Below the pieces are notes generated by a model, which was given only the letters and a program-made list of their open reading frames with translations, was not told the origin of the DNA and ran no database searches. 21,220 nt of DNA from a virus. The stretch is taken from IMG/VR virus record IMGVR_UViG_3300020121_000266, positions 1 to 21,220 of that record. One strand, written 5' to 3'. Below, piece after piece: positions 3,930-16,464 of this stretch; position 1 is the stretch's first letter; every line of letters begins with the position of its first letter. A program made the translations under genes and the position numbers.

Positions 3930-4328
3930 TCACCCCGCCTTTTTTTCCCCCGCCGCCTCGCGTGCGGCTTGCGCAGCAATGGCCTGATTACGTTCCATCT
4001 CGGCCTGGGCCTTGGCCACCGCAGCCCTGCCGGCCTCCTGTTCGGCCTCGAACTGCTTCTGCAGACCCTCGGTTCTGACGATCGGATCCGCCGTCTCTTT
4101 TGTCTTTAGCTTCTCGCTCTCTTCCCGCATCTGTCTGATACGGTCGAGCAATTGCTCGCGAGTCTCGTTAGCCTTCGGCAGGCCGTGGAAATTAGCGATT
4201 TCCTGGTTTTCGGCCTGACGGGCATCCTCGGCCTCGATATCCTTCTGACGCTCGAGATTTTCATTGCGGATCTTGGCCTTGTCAGCTTCACGCTGGGTAG
4301 TCGAATCGAACTCTTTCTTAACAGTCAT
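3930..4328 (-). CDS. small charged coiled-coil protein
   Basis: A 132-residue protein, almost entirely helical and rich in E, K, A, Q and R, with long coiled-coil stretches (for example REQLLDRIRQMREESEKL and KAQAEMERNQAIAAQAAREA). It could act as a tail or fibre assembly factor, a chaperone or a minor virion rod; no specific family is recognised. Start: ATG at 4328 behind AGGAG, nine bases after the TAG of the upstream gene and in the same frame as it. The gene ends with an A7 tract giving EKKAG before TGA. The tract contains the heptamer A-AAA-AAG in zero-frame register, so an alternative C-terminus by slippage, or a homopolymer sequencing error, is possible. Confidence 0.8.
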   Translation of the reverse strand: MTVKKEFDSTTQREADKAKIRNENLERQKDIEAEDARQAENQEIANFHGLPKANETREQLLDRIRQMREESEKLKTKETADPIVRTEGLQKQFEAEQEAGRAAVAKAQAEMERNQAIAAQAAREAAGEKKAG

Positions 4329-4337
4329 CAGGCTCTC

Positions 4338-4730
4338 CTATTGTGCCACACCGCTGAAAATGACGGTGTCGTGCTTGATGTTACCGAGGCTGTCGGTCAT
4401 CGTCAGCGTCAGTTTGGTGCGTTCGTTGACGGCACCCCCAACCAGAGGAAACACGACGTCGTTGCCAAGAATTTCCGGAGTGCCGACGGTATAAATCGAA
4501 GACGACGAAGCGATGTCGATGTGCTCGATGGTGGCGGTATTGGCCAACCAATTATCGTAGGTAACAGTCCAAACCTTGGTGTCGCCTTCGGTGTGTGGCT
4601 TGCTGGCTAGAAGAGGCATGTCCGTCACCTCGATTACACGAATTTCCGCCGGGACCTCGATCGTCCGGGATTCCTTGGGTACGACCAGAAGCCGATCTTC
4701 CTCCGGTACGACAATGATGTTGTCGTCCAT
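4338..4730 (-). CDS. fibre/tail adaptor-like protein with VPxExRxIxV repeats
   Basis: A 130-residue protein. I start at the ATG at 4730 (MDDNIIVVPEEDRLLVV), five bases after the upstream TGA; a longer in-frame start at 4775 would overlap the previous gene. The N-terminal 40 residues repeat a hydrophobic-charged unit: VVPEEDRLLVV, VPKESRTIEV, VPAEIRVIEV. The C-terminal part (TVTYDNWLANTATIEHID, then TLTMTDSLGNIKHD) looks like the small Ig-like beta domain of phage fibre-tail adaptor proteins, a family I recall in similar phages. It probably helps attach or space fibres on the tail. Its stop is TAG in the context TAGGAG, in frame with the next gene. Confidence 0.78.
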   Translation of the reverse strand: MDDNIIVVPEEDRLLVVPKESRTIEVPAEIRVIEVTDMPLLASKPHTEGDTKVWTVTYDNWLANTATIEHIDIASSSSIYTVGTPEILGNDVVFPLVGGAVNERTKLTLTMTDSLGNIKHDTVIFSGVAQ

Positions 4731-4735
4731 CCGAT

Positions 4736-5413
4736 TCACCCTATGATCATCCCAACAGCGGTCGCCGGCAGCCAAGCTTTCGGAGTGTAGGTGATAATGA
4801 TCACTCCGTCACCGCCAATACCGTTACCTTGCGTAGTCCCAGAAACCGTCCCAGCACCGCCGCCACCGCCACCGTATCTGCCGCCATTACCGCCCTTTCC
4901 ACTGCGTCCACCGCCCCCGCCGCTGCCGCAGCCATGGGTAGCGTCCCACTGTGTACCGTTATTGCCGTTAGCGGTTTCGTTGGCTTGACCTGTGCCGCCA
5001 CTGTCCGCCGCACCACCATAAGCCGCACCAGTCGGAGGACCGCCAGCGGCACTGTTGCCACCCACTTGACCAGCACCATGCGGACCTGCCGCACCGCCAC
5101 CGCCAGCACCGTTAACGCCGACCTGATAAGGTGCAGTACCGCCGTCACCGCCCGCAAAACCGGTGGGATAAAATCTGTAGCCACCCCTTCCGGCGACTTG
5201 GGCGACCGTACCTCCAGGGCTATTTCCAGCTTCCGCCGAGACTATGTTCGGCCCGCTGGCAATGGGGCTACTTGTTGAGCCAAAGTTGGTAGCAGTACTG
5301 GCTCCGGCAATTTGACCGGGACCTGGAATGTAACACGACACTGGAAAGGTCGGGTTCAAATTGGTGCCCTTGGCGTAAGCGCCACCACCGCCACCGCATC
5401 CACCAAATGCCAT
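4736..5413 (-). CDS. Gly-rich tail/fibre protein, C-terminal section
   Basis: 225 residues, extremely Gly-rich: several runs of five to seven Gly, GGNGGRYGGGGGGAG, and a closing strand DGVIIITYTP. This composition is typical of Gly-rich tail and fibre proteins (polyglycine-II-like shafts or tips). The ATG at 5413 follows AGGAG by seven bases, so it can be translated on its own. However, the upstream gene (5423-5734) is in the same frame, separated only by one TAG and three codons. The two halves together match the layout I know for single Gly-rich phage proteins, in which a VPxxWN...IExIGGGG segment runs directly into GGGGGAYxK. The unit is therefore probably a split or readthrough gene. Confidence 0.82.
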   Translation of the reverse strand: MAFGGCGGGGGAYAKGTNLNPTFPVSCYIPGPGQIAGASTATNFGSTSSPIASGPNIVSAEAGNSPGGTVAQVAGRGGYRFYPTGFAGGDGGTAPYQVGVNGAGGGGAAGPHGAGQVGGNSAAGGPPTGAAYGGAADSGGTGQANETANGNNGTQWDATHGCGSGGGGGRSGKGGNGGRYGGGGGGAGTVSGTTQGNGIGGDGVIIITYTPKAWLPATAVGMIIG

Positions 5414-5422
5414 GCTGTGCTC

Positions 5423-5734
5423 CTATGGCGAAACGCCCTGACTGGTACCATAACCACCACTGCCGATGCATTCGACAGTGTTGTTGGTTGGATCCCAGTT
5501 GCCTGGATCGGGGAAGGTGAATGGCGTATCTTTCGCAATCAGGAAAATTTGCGTTGGCGTGACCTGTTCCGTCGGCACATCGCGTTGCAGCTTGATCAGT
5601 TCGACCGTCTCGCCACCGCGCTTCAGCAACAGCCAGCATGGATTGTCCAGCTCGCTGTCGAGGCCCGGATAGATGGTGGCGTAGACCTCCTTGGTCTGCG
5701 CATTGCGAATCACGCCGATGAAATTGCTCATCAT
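5423..5734 (-). CDS. N-terminal section of Gly-rich tail/fibre protein, ends at amber codon
   Basis: 103 residues ([20 protein letters not shown] onward) with a compact N-terminal domain and then [19 protein letters not shown] and [13 protein letters not shown] before TAG. The first of two adjacent ATG codons overlaps the upstream TGA. The [11 protein letters not shown] segment is what normally introduces a long Gly-rich domain, yet translation stops just as it begins and the Gly-rich part resumes in the same frame at 5413. The N-terminal domain probably anchors the fibre to the tail, by analogy with similar proteins. Either an amber readthrough or a gene fission would explain the arrangement. 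Confidence 0.8.
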
Positions 5735-6171
5735 GCCCTCGTCGCCAAAATGGTGATACCGAGATCGGCCAAAGTCGCATCCTGGGTGGACGGCGCGACC
5801 AGTTGCAAAGTGTCACCCACGGCCAGTGCACCGCCGCTCCCTGACAACGTAAACACGGTCCTGGATCCTGCCGTCGCCACGATGGTGCCGATCGCCGTGG
5901 TGTTGCCGCCGCTGATCTTATTGAGTGTGAACGTTGCCGCAGCTGTCGCTGCCACACTGGCATAACCCACGGTGCCGACCAATCCGGCGGGGATATTCAG
6001 CGGCATCGCGATCGGCACGATGGTGGCGGCACCGGCCGCCGGCTTGCTTGGCAGTGGAAACACGATCAATAGTGGTGCCAGCAGCTGGTTCTGCCCCCAC
6101 TTTTCACCATCCCAGGTGTAACCTTGGTAGACTTGGCCGACGGTAGGAGCGTTGGGGAAATCGAATGCCAT
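5731..6171 (-). CDS. small tail/fibre-associated protein (PTVGQ..YTWDG N-terminus)
   Basis: A 146-residue protein. Its start [16 protein letters not shown] is followed by [11 protein letters not shown]. This short module is widespread at the N-terminus of phage tail and fibre proteins and probably mediates attachment. The rest is Ala/Thr/Gly-rich and beta-like ([32 protein letters not shown]), reminiscent of small head domains that bear on particle surfaces. The ATG at 6171 overlaps the TAA of the giant collagen-like fibre gene (TAATG), so translation is probably coupled to it. It could be a fibre tip, a fibre chaperone or a decoration protein; the sequence does not settle which. Confidence 0.8.
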
Positions 6172-9100
6172 TATGACAACCTCGCATTGGCCTGCAGATC
6201 GAAATCACACCAGATACCAGCCGCCGGTCCACTGGTGAGCGAAATACAGTTACCGCCTCCCGAAAATATGGCCCCCTGCCCAGAAACAGCACCCGTGGCT
6301 AAATACGCGCCACTGGTAGTATTGCGGCATTGGTTTTGCACACCGTTGGCCCAGAGCGTAATCGTTGGGACGGCCCGCATCGGTACGGTAAATCGCCAGC
6401 TGGCCAATCCAAGGTAATTGGCGACAAGACTATAACCAGCTAACGAACCACTAGCAGAGCTACCCTTCGGCGTTGCTGGATTACTGCACCACCAGTAACG
6501 CTGGCACGCCAGCAACTCACTCGGATAGTCCGGCAACGCGAATAGCGGCGCAACCGTACCCTCGGTCAACGACACATCGAATAGTTGGAAGTTGCTCGGG
6601 GCAACATTACAGAAGTTGACTTGATTGCTGGTGCAATAGCCTGAAGTCGCAGCCCATACGTTGGCCGCAGCAGGCAAACCGCACATCAGTGCCCAACGTA
6701 TTTCCAATCCGGTCGTGTTATCGACTGCCCATGTGCCCGTGGTATCCAACGTAACCGTGATAGTCTTGACGACGTCGGTAAGGGCTTCGCCTGCCGCGAT
6801 CGTATATTCAGCGATATAGTTTCGATTGAGCGCGGCGTTATTAAAGCTCACGCAATATGTCCCGGCCGGTGCGTTGACGCCAAACTGCAAGGTCACCGTT
6901 TTCGCAGTGGACTTGCCGCATTGCAGATCGACAACACGAAACCCTTCAAAGAAATGCTTGATATACAGGTATTTCGCACTACTGACGACGGAATCGTTGC
7001 CCAAGCATCTAACTTGCAAGCGATATGGCGAACCAGACGGCGTTGGCGATGCCCACTGATACGTACTCACCGCGCCTGTGTTGCTACCAGTAACGAGAAA
7101 CATATCGACTGGAAAGGCAGCCGCAACCAACGCATTGAGCACCGTCGTGCCGTTCTCCTGCGAAATCATCATCGCACTGTTAATAAGGTAATTCTTTTTC
7201 GGCACGCCGATATTGTTGCGGGCCTGTGCCTGTTGTGGCGTGGACAACGCCTGCGCCTGATCGTAGCGCACCACACCGCCAGCCTGCACCCCACCGGGAA
7301 TCGCCACCCACTGGCTGGAATTACCGTCAAAATAACGGAAAAAAAGTATGCCTGTGTCAGTCTCGTACCAGACGGAGTTATTGGGTGCACCAACCGGAGG
7401 CGTATCCGACGCCATGAAAGTCGGAGCCGTTCCCGTTGCTCCTGTTGCTCCCGTCGGTCCAGCACTGCCTGTAGATCCAGTTGGGCCTGTCGGTCCCGGC
7501 ACCCCTGCCTTGTTATCGACGTACTGCTTGGTCGCAACATTGAATGCATTAGTTGGATCGTATTGCACAGACACGTGCCCGGCACCATCAACAGAAAGCG
7601 GCGTATCCTGCAAGACGTTGGCGACGTAACGATTGACGACAAAAAAATCAGACTGGTCGGCGCCGAACGACCACGTCCTGCTGCCGTTGGTCTGGGTGAC
7701 AATCGAATTCGAACTCGAGCCCGGATCGGTCTTGTTCAGGACAACCGTCGGCGCCGACTTGGTGATAGTGAGATCGCCGGACATGGTATCGCCGGCCTTG
7801 GCTACCCGCAGCGCATCCTGGGCATCGACGTAAGCCTGCGTGGCACCTCCAGTTTTGCTATCGACATATTGCTTGGTGGCTAATTGCAACGCCGTAGTCG
7901 GATCGGCTGGCACCGTGATCGGTCCGGCGGCATTGGTGACCTTGCCAGTCTGAGTCCAGTTCATCACCTCGTTGCCGCCCAGCGACATCGCCACGACGCC
8001 GGAGGCTTTGCGGAACAGACCACTGCCAGTCTCGGCCGAGAATGAAAACGCCGGCGAACTCAGCAGACCGTCGACTCCCTTGATCGACAGTGCCGTGGTG
8101 ATGGTGCCGCCGATCGAGATTCGGTTGACGCCACCGACAGAGACAACAACTTGGTTGCCGCTCACGGTCGAGTACCACAGCCCGCTATTGTTGCCGAAGT
8201 TGAGCGACGGAGCTGCCGCAGTACCGACCGGCAGCGCCAACGCCCCGGTCATGGTGTCGCCGGCCTTCAAAACAAACGCACTTGGATCAGGTGCTGGTCC
8301 TGTTGCTCCTGTAGGTCCTACGTCGCCTGCCGGTCCGGTTACGCCAGCACTCCCTGCGGTACCGGTATCGCCCTTGGGTCCGGTTGCACCATCAGCACCA
8401 GCTGTACCCGGAGTACCCGGAATTCCCTGACTCCCCGCCGGTCCGGTTACGCCTTGAAGACCTTGCGATCCGGCAGCACCGGTAGGTCCAGCTATGCCTT
8501 GCGATCCGGCGGGACCGGTGGCGCCGACACCACCCGGAGTACCCGGGATTCCCTGACTACCCGCCGGTCCGGTCGCACCTACACCACCCGGAGTACCTGC
8601 AGTACCGGTATCGCCCTTCGGTCCAGTGGCGCCGACGCCACCCGGAGTACCGGCGGTACCGGTATCGCCCTTCGGTCCGGTTACACCGTCGATGCCAGCA
8701 GTACCTGCATCGCCCTTCGGTCCGGTGGCGCCGACAGAGCCGGGAATGCCTTGTGTCCCGGCGCTTCCGGTCGGTCCCTGAACGCCCTGAATACCCTGAA
8801 TACCCTGAATACCCTGCGAGCCGGCCGGTCCGGTAACCCCCGGAGGTCCGGCTACGCCCTGAATGCCCTGAGTCCCAGCAGGACCGGTAACGCCGGGTGT
8901 GCCCTGACTGCCTGCAGGTCCGGTAGCGCCTACACCGCCCGAAGTGCCGGGCGTCCCGGCCGTCCCTTGCGCACCCGTGGGACCGGTAGCCCCACCACCC
9001 GGCCCGATCGGTCCGGTCGGTCCAGTATCGCCTCCACCGGGCCCAACCGGCCCAATCGGACCGGTGGCGCCAAAACCGGTGGCTCCAGTGGGACCGGGGG

Positions 9101-10049
9101 TACCGGGGGTACCGGCAGAGCCCTGAACGCCAGCCGGTCCGGTAGGACCAGCCGTACCGGGTGTACCGGGAGTACCGTCCAATCCAGCAGGTCCAGTAGG
9201 ACCAGCACCGCCGGGCGTCCCTGCCGCGCCTTGGGCTCCGGTCGGACCTGCCGTGCCCTGAATGCCCTGAATACCTTGAATACCCTGCGATCCGGCGGGA
9301 CCGGTAGGACCAGCCGTTCCAGCAGTTCCGGCGGGACCGGTGGCGCCGGCGGGACCAATCCCACCCGCTGGTCCGGTAGCACCGGCCGCGCCAGCCGGAC
9401 CGGTCGGGCCTTCAGTACCGGTCCCCGACCCGCTGCCTGCAGGTCCGGTCGGACCGGTAGATCCTACACCCGGCGCTCCGGGCGTCCCGGTCGGGCCCGT
9501 GCCCAGCGATCCGGTCGGACCGGTCGGTCCAAACCCACCTGCCGTGCCCACCGCGCCGGTCGGACCTGGAGGACCCAACGGTCCGGTATGGCCGAAAGCA
9601 CCGGTCGGTCCGGTCGCTCCCGGCACGCCAACACCGATCGGTCCGTCCTGACCTACAGGACCCGTCGGTCCGGTGAAGGCCCCTGCTCCGGTCGGTCCGG
9701 TCGCCCCTGCGCCGGTCGGACCGACGATGCCCGTCGAACCGGTCGGTCCCGTCGCCGCTGCCCCGACCGGGCCGGTCGGTCCGGTCAGGCTGATGCCGGT
9801 CGGACCCAACGGACCATCGCGTCCGGTCGGACCAGTCGGACCGGTCCCCAGCGGTCCGGTCGGACCCGTATTGCCGGGTCCGGTAGCTCCGGTCGGTCCG
9901 GTATTTCCGGTCGGCCCGCCCAGCGGTCCGGTAGGTCCCGACGGCCCAGTGCCTCCCGTCGGACCTCCGGGAATACCCGGAGGACCGGTGTGTCCGGCAA
10001 TCACCACCGGAAACGCTGCAATCCGAGCTGCTGGCAAAATACTGGCCAT
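6171..10049 (-). CDS. giant collagen-like tail fibre / receptor-binding protein
   Basis: About 1292 residues. I start at the ATG at 10049 ([19 protein letters not shown]) because it follows the upstream TGA by one base and matches the N-termini of five related genes; an in-frame start at 10094 would overlap the previous gene. Order: short anchor peptide (1-18); collagen-like Gly-X-Y region (about 19-586) rich in [18 protein letters not shown] and [10 protein letters not shown]; tail-fibre repeats with [11 protein letters not shown] (about 593), ATKQYVDSK (about 725), [11 protein letters not shown] (about 750) and ATKQYVDNK (about 840); a second short collagen patch (about 850-875); and a C-terminal domain starting near [15 protein letters not shown] (about 952) with ACQRYWW, likely the carbohydrate/receptor-binding head. 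It probably trimerises via the collagen shaft. Confidence 0.88.
8338..9990 (-). repeat. collagen-coding repeat tract of the giant fibre gene
   Basis: About 1.65 kb of nine-base-periodic DNA encoding Gly-X-Y triplets. It contains near-identical longer repeats: the segment CACCCGGAGTACC...ATCGCCCTTCGGTCC recurs around 8585-8625 and 8638-8675 (about 54-bp spacing), and units encoding [13 protein letters not shown] recur nearby. CCCTGAATA repeats occur at 8785-8811 (three exact copies) and again near 9256-9282. Such DNA is prone to length change by recombination or slippage. Confidence 0.8.
8776..8820 (-). repeat. 9-bp tandem repeat coding [10 protein letters not shown]
   Basis: Five 9-bp units on the plus strand: CCCTGAACG, three exact CCCTGAATA (8785-8811), and CCCTGCGAG. 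On the coding strand these give repeated Ile-Gln-Gly. Because the unit is nine bases, gain or loss keeps the frame and alters shaft length only. Confidence 0.85.
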
Positions 10050-10050
10050 C

Positions 10051-10797
10051 TCACAGCTCCATGAAGGTGTAAGTGATACTGTGTACGCCAGCACCCGACC
10101 CGATCGTCGACTTCAACGACAGATCGAACCAGTACGAATTAAAATACGGATATTGGAATGATGGACGAACCTCCAGCTCAACGAGACTCATGATCGTCAG
10201 CGGGATCGTCATGTCGGGCGCGTAGACTTCCTGCGGTATCCCGATGGCCGTCCCCGTCACCGGATCGCCCTGATCCGGGAAAATGCTTTCAGTACCGTAA
10301 CGACCGGTAACTGTGGTACCGCCACCACCGGTGTTCTCGGCCACCGCAGTAATAATCACCAGCACACGACCACTCGTCATCGGCGCAAAGCCAAAACCGG
10401 CACCGACCATCACCTCGAGCGTATCGACTCCCGCAATGAAGTCATTGTCGGTCGGATCATGGTAGGAATACACCCGTGGAAAATTTATATCCGGCCCATT
10501 GGAAAGATCGATCGCCGGCGGCCCGGTCGGCCCCGTAGGTCCCATTTCGGCAACGGTACCCCCCGGTCCGGTCGGCCCGGTCGGTCCGGTTAGCGTGCCA
10601 TCCAGACCCGGCGTCCCTGTGACTCCCCTTTCCCCGGTCGGCCCGGTCTCCCCTCTCGGGCCGGTTGGTCCTGTGACCGATACGCTGCCCTGCGGTCCGG
10701 TCGGCCCTGTAGGCCCGCCAGACGGCCCCGTCGGCCCGCCGACCACCACGACCGGCTGAGCCAGGATTTGCGCACGAATGGCTGACTCTACTGGCAT
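10051..10797 (-). CDS. collagen-like fibre protein with beta-rich head
   Basis: 248 residues. The N-terminal peptide [20 protein letters not shown] matches the anchor of the other collagen-like genes. Residues 21-94 are Gly-X-Y repeats ([28 protein letters not shown]). The remaining 150 residues form a beta-type head beginning [17 protein letters not shown], with [20 protein letters not shown] near the end. The head's last part aligns by eye with that of the next upstream paralogue ([20 protein letters not shown]), so the two genes look like a duplicated pair. The ATG at 10797 follows the upstream TGA by one base. Probable role: a trimeric fibre or spike on the virion, contacting cell-surface sugars. 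Confidence 0.83.
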
Positions 10798-10798
10798 G

Positions 10799-11482
10799 TC
10801 AAAACTCTAGCACAATGCAGTTGATATTCCGGACGTTAGCGCCGCCATTATAGGTTGCCAGATCGAACCATCGCATCGGTGGAATATTAACCGAATCCCC
10901 CGAATCCCTATAATTAAGCACATACGTCGTCGTGAACGGGATCGAGAACCCGGATCCGTCATCGCCAATTTCGATCGCATCCCCATAACCGGAAAACTCA
11001 CCGCCTCCCGGTGCCGGACCTGTATTTGAGGAAATACCAATTTTGAACACAGACGTACCCGTCGGTTCAGCAAGCCCGGTAAACATCACAAACAAAATGC
11101 ACGCCGGGCGCTTGGGCTGATAATAAAACCTGCAGCCGACCGAAGCCCCGGACGTCGTCAACGTGAATCCGACTATGTTTTCGTAATACTGAAAGCGGCC
11201 TTCGGGAATGAACTCGAAAGGTCCGGTCGGCCCGGCCGGCCCTGGATAACCATCCGCCCCCGTTGGCCCTCCCTTCCCTGTCATACCTGTCAATGCCGAC
11301 GCCAATCCCGCTATGCCAGCAGGGCCCGTTCGTCCGCGCATGCCGGTTGGCCCAAGCAATCCGGTGGCCCCGATAAACGTCACATCTTCCACAACCCCCG
11401 TCGGTCCTGTCGGACCTTCAGCCGGCCCCATCGGACCGCCGATCACCCGCACCGGATTGACGATGGTCGGGAACTGCGCCAT
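10799..11482 (-). CDS. collagen-like fibre protein with beta-rich head
   Basis: 227 residues. The anchor peptide [16 protein letters not shown] leads into a short collagen-like segment (about 15-88) with interruptions ([15 protein letters not shown]). The C-terminal head has [16 protein letters not shown], a Gly-rich loop [15 protein letters not shown], and a terminal strand ending IVLEF, similar in layout to its downstream neighbour. The collagen part is shorter and less regular than in the other members, with few perfect GPT triplets. The ATG at 11482 shares its A with the upstream TGA. Likely a homotrimeric spike or fibre; the head's ligand cannot be read from sequence. Confidence 0.82.
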
Positions 11483-12423
11483 CAGCGAATCCCCATAATG
11501 ACGTAACCGACACTATTGGTTCGATCCGTCGTGTTCAGCGTGAAGCTATCATTGAGGGTCAAGTCAGGAAAACCGCCGCCGTCATAGGCCGCGTTGTAAG
11601 AAATATTGTGGATCGCAACATCCCAGCCAGAGGACGTGCAACGCAAGCCCAAGGTCTGGATGACATACATGCCATAGCAGCCGTTGAACGATGCCCCTTG
11701 ATCACTCCACATCGCCAAGTAGTAAGGCTTCGGACTGAGCGCGACACTGATGACGGTCTCCATAATTCCGTAGGTCGGCACCAAATTGCCGCTATCGACC
11801 AATGGAATCGTCGGATGCATGTCCGGCGTGCAGTCATAGATCGCCATCCGAAACCGCGAATCGGGAGCGGTCGACAGGCACTGCACCGCCATCTTGGTGT
11901 AAACCCGCCCATTCGGGATATACACCGGCGTCAAGATGATCTTGTTGCCGTCAATCCACGCACTTCTAAGCGGATTATTACTGACGATCGGCATCACCAA
12001 ATAGGTCAGCGGACTGGCGAACATCGGTGCCGAAAAACCGCAAACATTGCCTCCACCGAGAGGGCCTGCCGGACCTGCAGGACCAGTCGGTCCCGTCGCA
12101 GGCCCGGAAGCTCCGGTCGGACCTACGCTACCGGTAGGTCCTTGCGGCCCAGTGTCTCCGGTCGGTCCAGTATCTCCGGGCGGACCTTGATCACCAATTC
12201 CGAACGGTCCAGTCGCCCCCACAGGTCCGGTCGGGCCGGTCTCCCCGGGCAATCCTGCAGGACCAGTCCCGGTCGCTCCCGTCGGGCCGATCGCTCCGGT
12301 TGGCCCAGTGGTCGACACCGATCCTGTCGGTCCAGTAGGTCCGGTAGGTCCCCCCGAAGGTCCAGTCGGGCCTCCAACCACCTTAACCGGTTGCGCCAGG
12401 ATCTGTTTGGGAGCACGGGCCAT
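11482..12423 (-). CDS. collagen-like fibre protein with FRMAxYDC head
   Basis: 313 residues. [18 protein letters not shown] is the shared anchor. Residues 18-125 are collagen-like ([24 protein letters not shown]). From about 126 a 190-residue head begins [15 protein letters not shown]. It contains FRMAIYDC (191-198) and DMHPTIPL (201-208), a [14 protein letters not shown] strand, and closes with YVIMGIR. The same landmarks recur in the upstream gene, so these are paralogues whose heads have diverged, probably under selection by receptor variation. Stop and start overlap at both ends (TGATG). Virion surface fibre inferred from collagen shaft plus head; binding target unknown. Confidence 0.84.
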
Positions 12424-13400
12424 CAGCGCATCCCCATGAGCAGAACGGCCCCGCTGGCAAAATCCAGATCGGGCGTCGTCATGGCGGTCAGATTGATGAA
12501 ACCCTGATTGTAGCCGTAATTAAAATTGGAATATTTCATCTGGACGGCTTCGAACATCCACTGAGTATTGTCAGCGTATTTACGCCAACCCAATACAGGC
12601 GCCGGCTGATCGCTGGCCATAGCCCGGTAATACACACCGTAGGTATTGCTCAAAAATGCGAAGTAATACGGCTTCGCCTGCAGCGCCAAACTACTAAACG
12701 AAAATCCGATGCGTCCATGTCCACCAGGAATAATGTCCGGGCTCTGGATCAACGGTACGGTGGGATGCATGTTGACGTCGCAATCATAGAGCGCCATCCG
12801 AAAGAAGACGCCAAAACTGCGCTCTTGATAAGAGTCGACCACCAACTCGGTGAAAGATCGCGGAAATGGCACGAACACCGGCACCAGGATGATCACACCG
12901 TTGGGCATCTGGTAATACTGAAGACTACCTGTAAAATCGACATTGAACCGATTCAGATACGTCGGGGTCAAGTAGACCTCTGAAGCCGCAAAGATCGGTG
13001 CCTGCAATCCGCCATAAGAGCCGGCCCCCGTAGGTCCCACCGTTCCCGTAATACCGGCTGGTCCGCCGGCATTTCCGGGCACTCCCGTCCGACCTGCGAA
13101 CCCAGTGATCCCGGTTGGACCTTCGTCTCCCCAATCACCCCACCAACCGGTAGGACCGAGTTCGATCACCTCCGGCGGTCCGGTAGCCCCCCGTGGCCCG
13201 GTCGGTCCTGTACCAGCATTAGAGCCGGTAGCTCCAAAATCGCCGACCGGTCCTGTCATCCCTCGAGGTCCGGTGGTGCCTATCGCCAACGAACTTCCTT
13301 CTGGACCCGGCAAACCCGGTGGACCCAAAGCGCCGGTTATCCCAAGCACTACGGTCGGCTTGAGGGTGATTGGAGCGGGATCATGTTGCTTTACCGGCAT
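12423..13400 (-). CDS. collagen-like fibre protein with FRMAxYDC head
   Basis: 325 residues from the ATG at 13400, which shares its A with the upstream TGA and gives [20 protein letters not shown], nearly the same beginning as the first collagen gene ([19 protein letters not shown]). A longer in-frame start at 13448 is rejected. The collagen-like part (about 20-127) is irregular, with the aromatic insert [16 protein letters not shown]. The head has FRMALYDC (200-207), NMHPTVPL (210-217), [11 protein letters not shown] and a terminal LLMGMR, paralogous to the downstream gene. It is probably a separate fibre or an alternative receptor-binding spike. Confidence 0.84.
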
Positions 13401-13987
13401 CAGACATGCCTCGCTGAAAACGTCTGGGCGCCAAGCACAGAGCCCCATTGCTCCAGCGCCATGATCGTCATGCGCCCTTCAGGGTTGGTGGTGAGCCATT
13501 GCTCCAGACCGATCTGAGTAAGCCGGGCCTCCAGAGGATAGGTAACCGTGCTGTCGATGTTGAACTCGATCTCACGCAAGAACGGCGAGCTACTGGTGGT
13601 GCCGTTGATCTGCAGCAGTCGGTAATACCGCCAGGAATTCGTGTTGGCCGACAGGGTCGTAAGCGTCTGTAGCGTCGAGCCGCCAAGGGTGAAGAACGAG
13701 CCGATGTCGGTCCACACCGAAGCATCGTTCGATCCCTGCCACTTCCAGTCACCGTGGGCCGTACCAGCGACGTCCTGATACCACTTGGCTTCGATGATGT
13801 TGCGGGCGACACCGAAATCAAATCGTAATTCGCGACCGCTTTGACCGTTGCTCCACCAGAGTTCATTGGCCTGCGAACCGTTCACCAGCATGGTGATGTT
13901 GCCGGCGCCCAGCGTTGACGTCGTCGTCACCGTAATCCAGGCGGTCCGATTGCCGCTGCCCCCCGAGTTTGTATAAGCGTTGGCCAT
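13400..13987 (-). CDS. discoidin/F5-8C-like carbohydrate-binding tail protein
   Basis: 195 residues (MANAYTNSGGSGNRTAWITV). The pattern LWWSNGQSGRELRFDFG, then IIEAKWYQDVAGTAHGDW, KWQGSNDASVWTDIGSFFTL and WRYYRLLQINGTTSS is that of a discoidin / F5-8 type C jelly-roll, a galactose-binding-like fold that attaches virions or enzymes to glycans. The tail end carries two related short units, RLTQIGLEQWLTT and RMTIMALEQWGSV. These resemble the TQ-x-G-x-E-V units found at the C-termini of many phage tail proteins. The ATG at 13987 lies four bases after the upstream TAA. Probable cell-surface binding accessory protein; specificity unknown. Confidence 0.8.
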   Translation of the reverse strand: MANAYTNSGGSGNRTAWITVTTTSTLGAGNITMLVNGSQANELWWSNGQSGRELRFDFGVARNIIEAKWYQDVAGTAHGDWKWQGSNDASVWTDIGSFFTLGGSTLQTLTTLSANTNSWRYYRLLQINGTTSSSPFLREIEFNIDSTVTYPLEARLTQIGLEQWLTTNPEGRMTIMALEQWGSVLGAQTFSARHV

Positions 13988-13991
13988 GCTG

Positions 13992-15497
13992 TTACGCCGT
14001 TACGATCGGTCCGATGTTGACACTGTTGACACCATTTGCAGTCCACGCAGCTCCGGTCGCCGGATCGACCAAGTCGTTGCGGGCAATCCAGCTCCATACT
14101 GCGGTGTTAAGCGCCGTATTAGGGCCCTGCACCGTGGTTGCCCCTGATTTGAGCTGCACCGATGCATTGCGAGTCCCGGCATCGGTCTTGGTGAAAAAGC
14201 CACGGGTAGTGACGCCGACGATATTGGCCGGCGCCACCGCAATGCTGCCGATAGTGTAGAGGTCGGCCTGACCGTTGACTGAAGAACCCACGTAGCTGGT
14301 GAAGACATCCTGCAGCAATTCGCTGACGCAGTCGGCATTCATGCCGGGCGTAATAATCAGCGTGGGGCTGTAGACGTTCGGTGTGCCAAGCGTCCCGCCA
14401 GGATTGGATACCGGCCACGTCGCATAGTTCTGCGTTAATGCAATTGCGTTAACCGGCACGCTGGTGGAATTGATGACGTTATAGGTGATATTGGCGTCTT
14501 GGTTGAGCCCGAACCAATAGGTCTGACCCGCAGCCACCCGAACCGGCGTCGGGAAGGTCAACGGCACCATGCCCACGGTCGGATCGGTGAATTCCGCCGA
14601 CGTAGCCAGCAGATTGCCGATCGTGTTCGAGGAATTGGAAAATATCGCTGCCCGCAGATGCCCCGGACCACCGCCACCACTGATGTTGCAGTTGACCAGA
14701 GCGCCGGTGATCAAACCGCTATAGGACGACGTGAACTGAACGTAGCGACAATCATTGGCGTTGAACCCGTTGGCAACGTTAATGGGACCAAACGCCAACT
14801 GGTTGATCGGCGCTGTCGAGCGGGAAAGCTGCACTGACACGTCCGAAGCGGGCCTTCGTGTGTAGCACCGGATATCCCCGACCCACGGCACGCTGGCCGC
14901 ATCGGAACGCCAAAGGAAATCATCGATGTAATGGTTGCCGGCACCTACCGCCTGCGATCCCAGCTGTAGCTTGTTGGCGTAGTTGTTGACGGTAGTCGCG
15001 GTATCGAGCGAACCCAGAAAGAAATCGTTGTTGGGGTTGCCGCTCTTGCGGATCGCGATCGAGCCAGCCGTGTTATGCACCACCACTTCGATCTCGAACG
15101 CATACCAGACGCCCTGGGCCGGAAACGCTCCGCTGTACAACGCCAGCAGCGAGCCCGTAGGGCCGCCTGCCGTCAGCAGAATGACACCATCGCTGCGAAA
15201 CACTACCGAACACTGGGCGGTGGTGCCGTCAAACAGCTCGAGATAAAACCCCAGATTGGTGCCGGTGATGGCCGAAGACTGCTGAAAACTGACCGTGAAA
15301 TGGTGGATCGAATCGTTCTGCCCGCTAGTCTTGATCAGCGTAGTCGAATTGCTGATGGTGAACCCGCGTGATCCGGAAAACCGCCCCGTGATGAAGGTGG
15401 AAGAATTCGGATTTAATGAAGCGGCATCCCAGTAACCGGCGACGGCATCAGCCATCACCGCGTACATGTCAAAGCCGTCTCCAAAAAAGAACGCCAT
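13992..15497 (-). CDS. LamG/ConA-like virion protein
   Basis: About 501 residues. A GTG at 15500 precedes the ATG at 15497; I prefer the ATG because AGG then sits seven bases upstream. The start MAFFFGDGFDMYAVMADAV is a form I associate with phage structural proteins carrying a concanavalin/LamG-like jelly-roll. The segment from about 30 to 200 (GFYLELFDGTTAQCSVVF, WYAFEIEVVVHNTAGSIAI, HYIDDFLWRSD) fits that fold. The middle (GHLRAAIFSNSSNTIGNLL, AGQTYWFGLNQDAN) looks like a second beta-sandwich. No catalytic motif is seen. It lies between two collagen-like genes, so a role in the fibre/adsorption apparatus is inferred. Confidence 0.78.
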   Translation of the reverse strand: MAFFFGDGFDMYAVMADAVAGYWDAASLNPNSSTFITGRFSGSRGFTISNSTTLIKTSGQNDSIHHFTVSFQQSSAITGTNLGFYLELFDGTTAQCSVVFRSDGVILLTAGGPTGSLLALYSGAFPAQGVWYAFEIEVVVHNTAGSIAIRKSGNPNNDFFLGSLDTATTVNNYANKLQLGSQAVGAGNHYIDDFLWRSDAASVPWVGDIRCYTRRPASDVSVQLSRSTAPINQLAFGPINVANGFNANDCRYVQFTSSYSGLITGALVNCNISGGGGPGHLRAAIFSNSSNTIGNLLATSAEFTDPTVGMVPLTFPTPVRVAAGQTYWFGLNQDANITYNVINSTSVPVNAIALTQNYATWPVSNPGGTLGTPNVYSPTLIITPGMNADCVSELLQDVFTSYVGSSVNGQADLYTIGSIAVAPANIVGVTTRGFFTKTDAGTRNASVQLKSGATTVQGPNTALNTAVWSWIARNDLVDPATGAAWTANGVNSVNIGPIVTA

Positions 15498-15501
15498 CAC
15501 C

Positions 15502-16464
15502 TTACCTGTTATACTTCAGCGTGATCGTAACTCGTTGAATCGCAGCAACGCTGTTGACGTTGAATCCCAGAATATCTCCTGCGGCCAACGCCTTGGTCCA
15601 CCCAGTCAGCGTAGAATCGGTAGACTTCACCGCTGATGTGATAGTTAGCGGCGTCGAACCGGTGATCTTGTCGCCGGCGACTGGATGGGTGGCCCCGGCA
15701 TCAAACTGGGCAAAGCTGCATTTCCAGAGATCGATGACGATGCTGCCGGTACGATCGGCAACCATATCGACTTGCGCCAGAGTGCCAATGAACGGCACCT
15801 CGACATAGCCTTTCATGCCGACCGAGATCGCGGACCCTCCCCCATCTATCACCGCGATCATGGCGGAAGAGTTGGGACCAGTAGCCCCGGTCGCACCGAC
15901 CGAACCGGTCGAACCGGTAGGTCCGCCCGGTATACCCGGATCACCCGTAGGCCCAGTTGAGCCAGTGTTGGACGCCGTACCTGGGAGACCTATTGGCCCG
16001 GTAAACCCGGTAGGACCTGTCAACCCAATCGTTCCGGTCGGCCCAGTGACGCCAGTCGGTCCAGTAGGCCCACCCGGGATGCCCGTAGGTCCCGTAGCGC
16101 CAGTCAACGTAGCGTTGCCTTGAATCCCGCGTTGTCCGGTAGGCCCGGTCGGCCCATCGTTGCCGAACGGTCCAGGTTGCCCTTGAGGCCCGGTCTTGCC
16201 GGTCGATCCAGCAGGGCCGGCAGGGCCGATACCCCCCATGGGCCCGGTTAATCCGGTAGGTCCAGTAGGCCCGGTGAGCGTTCCTGCAAGCCCGGTGGGC
16301 CCGGTCGCACCCGTCGCTGCGATTGCAGCAGCGCCCGTAGGACCGGTCGCTGCAGCGCCCGTTGGACCCGCCGGGCCAGTGTAGCCCTGAATGACCACAC
16401 CCTCGCGAACCACGACTACCGGGTAAGCTGCTATTTGAGCGGGATCGTTGTTTTTGACGGGCAT
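15502..16464 (-). CDS. collagen-like fibre protein, first of the array
   Basis: 320 residues, the first collagen-like gene after the neck genes. Anchor peptide [19 protein letters not shown]; collagen region about 30-197 with long GPTGPTG runs; then a head of roughly 120 residues starting near [17 protein letters not shown]. The head contains [35 protein letters not shown] and a final strand VTITLKYN. This head is a form I recognise from the C-termini of various phage fibre and tail proteins. A six-base inverted repeat (16469-16474 / 16485-16490) spans the start region and includes the AAGGTGAT ribosome-binding site and the upstream TAA. Likely trimeric fibre. Confidence 0.86.

Follow-up and report, generated by a model that had tools for sequence, protein, structure and literature searches.

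Does an amber codon within a glycine-rich phage gene divide one protein into two chains, is it decoded, or does it mark a damaged gene? The question arises from a minus-strand locus in a 21,220-base window that constitutes an entire IMG/VR record. The initial annotation described a Gly-rich tail protein interrupted by a single in-frame TAG, and offered amber read-through, fission with re-initiation, a suppressor-using phage or host, and a point mutation as explanations.

Anatomy of the split locus

The first open reading frame (ORF1) runs from ATG 5734 to TAG 5425-5423, encodes 103 aa and has a C-terminus of Ser-Pro-TAG. The second (ORF2) runs from ATG 5413 to TGA 4738-4736 and encodes 225 aa. 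Rereading the sequence bore out the earlier description: three codons (GAG CAC AGC) separate the TAG from ATG 5413, both ORFs share one frame, and reading through the TAG gives a computed product of 332 residues, matching the earlier estimate. An AGGAG motif (5424-5420) overlaps the ORF1 stop with a spacing of 6 nt to the ORF2 ATG, and the gap between the ORFs is +9 nt. The features are as follows.

5731..6171, minus strand: conserved upstream neighbour gene (MAFDFPNAP...ITILATRA), gene order kept in relatives
5423..5734, minus strand: ORF1, 103 aa, module A and the N-terminal strands of the Gly-rich domain
5582..5734, minus strand: module A, residues 1-51 of ORF1, encoded by its own small gene in relatives, without a PHROGs or Pfam match
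5426..5554, minus strand: N-terminal part of the Gly-rich domain, residues 61-103 (TQIFL...VSP), with homologues; model strands 61-66, 72-74 and 86-90
5423..5425, minus strand: in-frame TAG at the first Gly-rich loop tip
5420..5424, minus strand: Shine-Dalgarno sequence AGGAG over the TAG, 6 nt ahead of ATG 5413
4736..5413, minus strand: ORF2, 225 aa, remainder of the Gly-rich domain, ending GVIIITYTPK...
4326..4340, minus strand: internal control joint TAGGAGAGCCTGATG between two unrelated genes, likewise in frame

Homology is continuous across the TAG

Direct searches of annotated phages, PHROGs, Pfam and IMG/VR with ORF1, ORF2 and the joined protein returned no match, and two scans of genome contigs found no relative. 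Relatives were recovered solely by scanning for a motif and by using small alignments. With a degenerate DNA pattern for NT[IV]EC[IV]G, 55 phage loci were identified whose motif runs into Gly-rich sequence within one open frame, the exceptions being frames cut by contig ends. The clearly nearest of these loci (L032; NTVECVGSGGYG...GGGGGGSAYATGSN) has no stop. Subsequent alignment-based scans yielded a family of homologous loci, and 14 copies from other phage contigs align end to end with the Gly-rich domain of the window. Whether relatives are fused at this site, a check suggested by the initial annotation, could thus be answered: all 14 copies are uninterrupted, with no stop at the TAG position. 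The mean identity of the read-through protein to these copies is 0.51 before the TAG and 0.43 after it. Judged from these alignments, the sequence on both sides of the TAG is one homologous Gly-rich domain, as had been proposed, and the continuity of homology exceeds chance. Because the 14 homologous copies are uninterrupted there, the break in the window is a derived state. The Pfam profile PF21722 (Gly_rich_2) is matched by 2 of the 21 aligned family members (best E 4.6e-6); the joined protein, ORF1 and ORF2 gave no match to it.

Highly conserved positions are retained throughout (10/10 ahead of the TAG and 45/45 beyond it), and therefore neither part is visibly decaying. The TAG site lies in the most length-variable stretch of the family, where the window has a linker of 20 residues within a range of 11-31, a range measured on ten rows. 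An insertion as the origin of the joint, suspected from the comparison with L032 alone, was dropped since the linker length falls inside the family range.

The split is seen in a single contig and no close relative has it. Scanning with a profile of the Gly-rich domain gave 600 matching stretches, none of which was confirmed, and is thus uninformative on how frequent such splits are. A scan for further TAGGAG-ATG-Gly-rich starts gave 82 sites and no obvious second split of the domain. Because just one contig shows the split, the main and serious rival to gene fission is that an otherwise normal joined gene has recently acquired a nonsense change, or contains an error of sequencing or assembly, with a fortuitous downstream start, leaving the tip impaired or the sampled population mixed. 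The linker of ordinary length and the full set of conserved residues are what a very young break would also display. We consider this account unlikely overall, although it is the strongest of the competitors; the evidence against it comes from the ribosome site described below.

ORF1 is a fusion with an upstream small gene

In relatives with a complete region, three genes occur in order: one resembling 5731-6171, the small module A gene (roughly 72-83 aa), and the Gly-rich gene. Module A of these relatives has a stop of its own, in a different frame, at or close to the point where the Gly-rich gene begins; in L032 it ends ...RTRK, with a TGA overlapping GTG ACC CAG. In the window the tail of module A has been lost and the frame continues into TQIFL, and ORF1 therefore combines module A with the initial strands of the Gly-rich domain. 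By sequence comparison ORF1 is an in-frame fusion of the upstream small gene (module A, the first ~55 residues) with the beginning of that domain, a feature missed in the earlier reading.

Module A (IGVI...INPDDDSELDNPRLLL...) was seen as a small conserved protein immediately before the Gly-rich gene in the window (5582-5734) and in L082, L083, L085, L087, L088 and L090. Two Gly-rich domains occur within one frame in L083 (5219-6823), L086 (5219-6811) and L087 (5216-6733), and an A-like module is fused behind the Gly-rich domain in L082 (5249-8654). Across the aligned loci, gene boundaries within the A/Gly-rich cassette are generally labile.

Some further observations concern the surrounding genome. 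Judged by its internal virion protein, L002 is the nearest relative (72%); at this position (6219-6626) it has not the A/Gly-rich pair but a different Gly-rich protein of 135 aa. By the same internal virion protein, the nearest named relatives are Rhizobium phages (38% identity). Several genes nearby (6171-16464 of the window) code for proteins with collagen-like GPTGPTG repeats, the product of one being 1307 aa long.

The joint is common but the ribosome site is good

The initial annotation had singled out the three-codon, same-frame spacing between the TAG and the ORF2 start. The spacing is real; its apparent significance is not, because TAG, GAG, six nucleotides and ATG are arithmetically in frame. 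A joint of this type recurs in the window at 4340-4326, between unrelated genes, and in other contigs. The L002 homologue of the 4340-4326 joint (TAGGAGGACTCATG) is shorter by a single base and not in frame; the frame at that joint is thus incidental. In L019 an identical 15-mer (TAGGAGCACAGCATG) lies between two other ORFs. On this comparison, TAG-GAG-N6-ATG is a common gene joint, and its in-frame spacing is no evidence of recoding. Elsewhere, L092 (3983-4601) contains three consecutive small ORFs, each with an MCFGGGGGG start after a TAGGAG joint, which resemble duplicated small genes.

The ORF2 start is served by AGGAG at a spacing of 6, which places it among the better ribosome sites of the 26 gene starts in the window, just two of which have a longer match. 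Near-stop codons (codons one step from a stop) were examined for a Shine-Dalgarno sequence with an in-frame ATG within 27 nt; this arrangement followed 8 of 1409 such codons in the other genes of the window and 0 of 436 in the Gly-rich genes of relatives. A good ribosome site with an in-frame ATG after a random near-stop codon is thus rare, which argues against a chance nonsense change with a lucky start. Of the options offered originally, fission with re-initiation from the Shine-Dalgarno sequence inside TAGGAG fits best, the ORF2 site being strong and the coincidence rare.

ORF1 and ORF2 also have the short gap and the properly spaced Shine-Dalgarno sequence before the second start that define a Shine-Dalgarno-led gene pair. 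In E. coli, gaps of +9 to +12 nt able to hold a Shine-Dalgarno sequence form a known gene-pair class, and subunits of the same complex are over-represented among close gene pairs (PMC10666635). The +9 nt gap of ORF1/ORF2 holds such a sequence, as in those pairs; unlike them, ORF1 and ORF2 encode the two halves of a single ancestral domain.

The TAG is probably not decoded

A leaky amber codon, at which most ribosomes terminate and some read through, would produce short and long forms of the tip protein. The frame past the TAG is open and homologous, consistent with this idea. Additionally, release in E. coli can be slower when a stop follows a C-terminal proline (PMC3985003, PMC7246954), and by analogy the proline of Ser-Pro-TAG in ORF1 may be a weak point in favour of leakiness. 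However, no stimulatory RNA structure was found in the 80 nt after the TAG, which fold less well than shuffled sequences (z = +1.49), and read-through has no need of a Shine-Dalgarno sequence and ATG directly after the stop. Programmed amber read-through would be expected to show a conserved stop, whereas the TAG is absent from all relatives. Read-through thus gained no positive support, and we regard it as improbable.

Decoding of the TAG as an amino acid by the phage or its host, through a suppressor tRNA or a changed code, is far less probable still. The open frame is consistent with it, and nothing else is. The search for a suppressor tRNA with a CUA anticodon, which the initial annotation had advised, covered the window and 24 related loci and detected no tRNA of any kind. 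Moreover, the gene at 4730-4338 terminates in TAG, and its L002 homologue terminates at the same point, also in TAG, while the other genes of the window, including those of 764 aa and 1307 aa, are open without TAG.

The break maps to a predicted loop tip

The joined protein was modelled with AF2, with the TAG read as Q and an alignment of 21 rows. The mean pLDDT was 78.7, with the Gly-rich domain mostly about 90 and module A about 50. Around the TAG (residues 101-110) pLDDT falls to 59, between the strands 86-90 and 120-124; because this low-confidence stretch separates two confident strands, the break is placed at the tip of the first long Gly-rich loop. ORF2 alone, modelled with an alignment of 9 rows, reached a pLDDT of 53, suggesting that ORF2 may need the ORF1 strands, a comparison in which the two alignments differ in depth (21 and 9 rows).

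Solved structures searched by sequence gave no match. In contrast, a Foldseek search with the joined model matched 7ypx_A and 9d93_Qa with a probability of 1.00 and a target TM of about 0.5, and many Gly-rich phage proteins in a viral predicted-structure library match the model. The ranking of solved structures was headed by the Pam3 tail-fibre tip gp24, followed by the Bxb1 tail tip and, weakly, by the glycine-rich region of ALK. Pam3 gp24 (PDB 7YPX, 7YFW; PMC9608196; E 2.4e-5) has a TNF-like and a glycine-rich domain and, like the joined model, strands bearing long Gly-rich loops that are least conserved at their tips; in gp24 these tips are also the proposed receptor site (PMC9608196). Whereas gp24 is one chain, the window domain is cut at its first loop tip and carries the extra module A in front. 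The Bxb1 tail-tip chains Qa/Qb (PDB 9D93; E 3.5e-5) are likewise unsplit, and their likeness to the window protein is remote (about 19% identity). The joined model therefore has a TNF-like fold with long Gly-rich loops, but the TAG at 5425-5423 separates it from single-chain members. Given the predicted fold and the position among tail genes, the domain is probably a putative receptor tip that binds the host surface.

Fission with re-initiation is the favoured explanation

We slightly favour a gene fission in a soil phage, with Shine-Dalgarno-led re-initiation and two chains that probably co-fold as one nicked domain. Translation of ORF1 would end at TAG 5425-5423, and initiation at ATG 5413, by that ribosome or a different one, would use the AGGAG overlapping this stop. 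The outcome would be two polypeptides: ORF1, comprising module A and the first three strands, and ORF2, comprising all later strands and loops. Since a long flexible loop is interrupted at its tip, the chains would most likely co-fold into the nicked domain, with ORF1 tying it to module A. We infer that both chains are made and that they assemble. Restriction to a single contig counts against fission, as does the fact that splitting a domain while keeping both halves is less usual than loss of function. A more specific proposal, that placing the first strands and module A on a separate polypeptide yields a two-chain nicked tip domain whose halves are exchangeable or unequally produced, is doubtful.

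If both chains are made and assembled, a Gly-rich receptor-tip domain would tolerate a chain break at a hypervariable loop tip, and the cassette would be a natural split protein, offering a simple system for loop folding and for the movement of tail-gene boundaries. If not, the locus would represent an isolated nonsense change and would warn against taking an in-frame TAG-GAG-N6-ATG as recoding.
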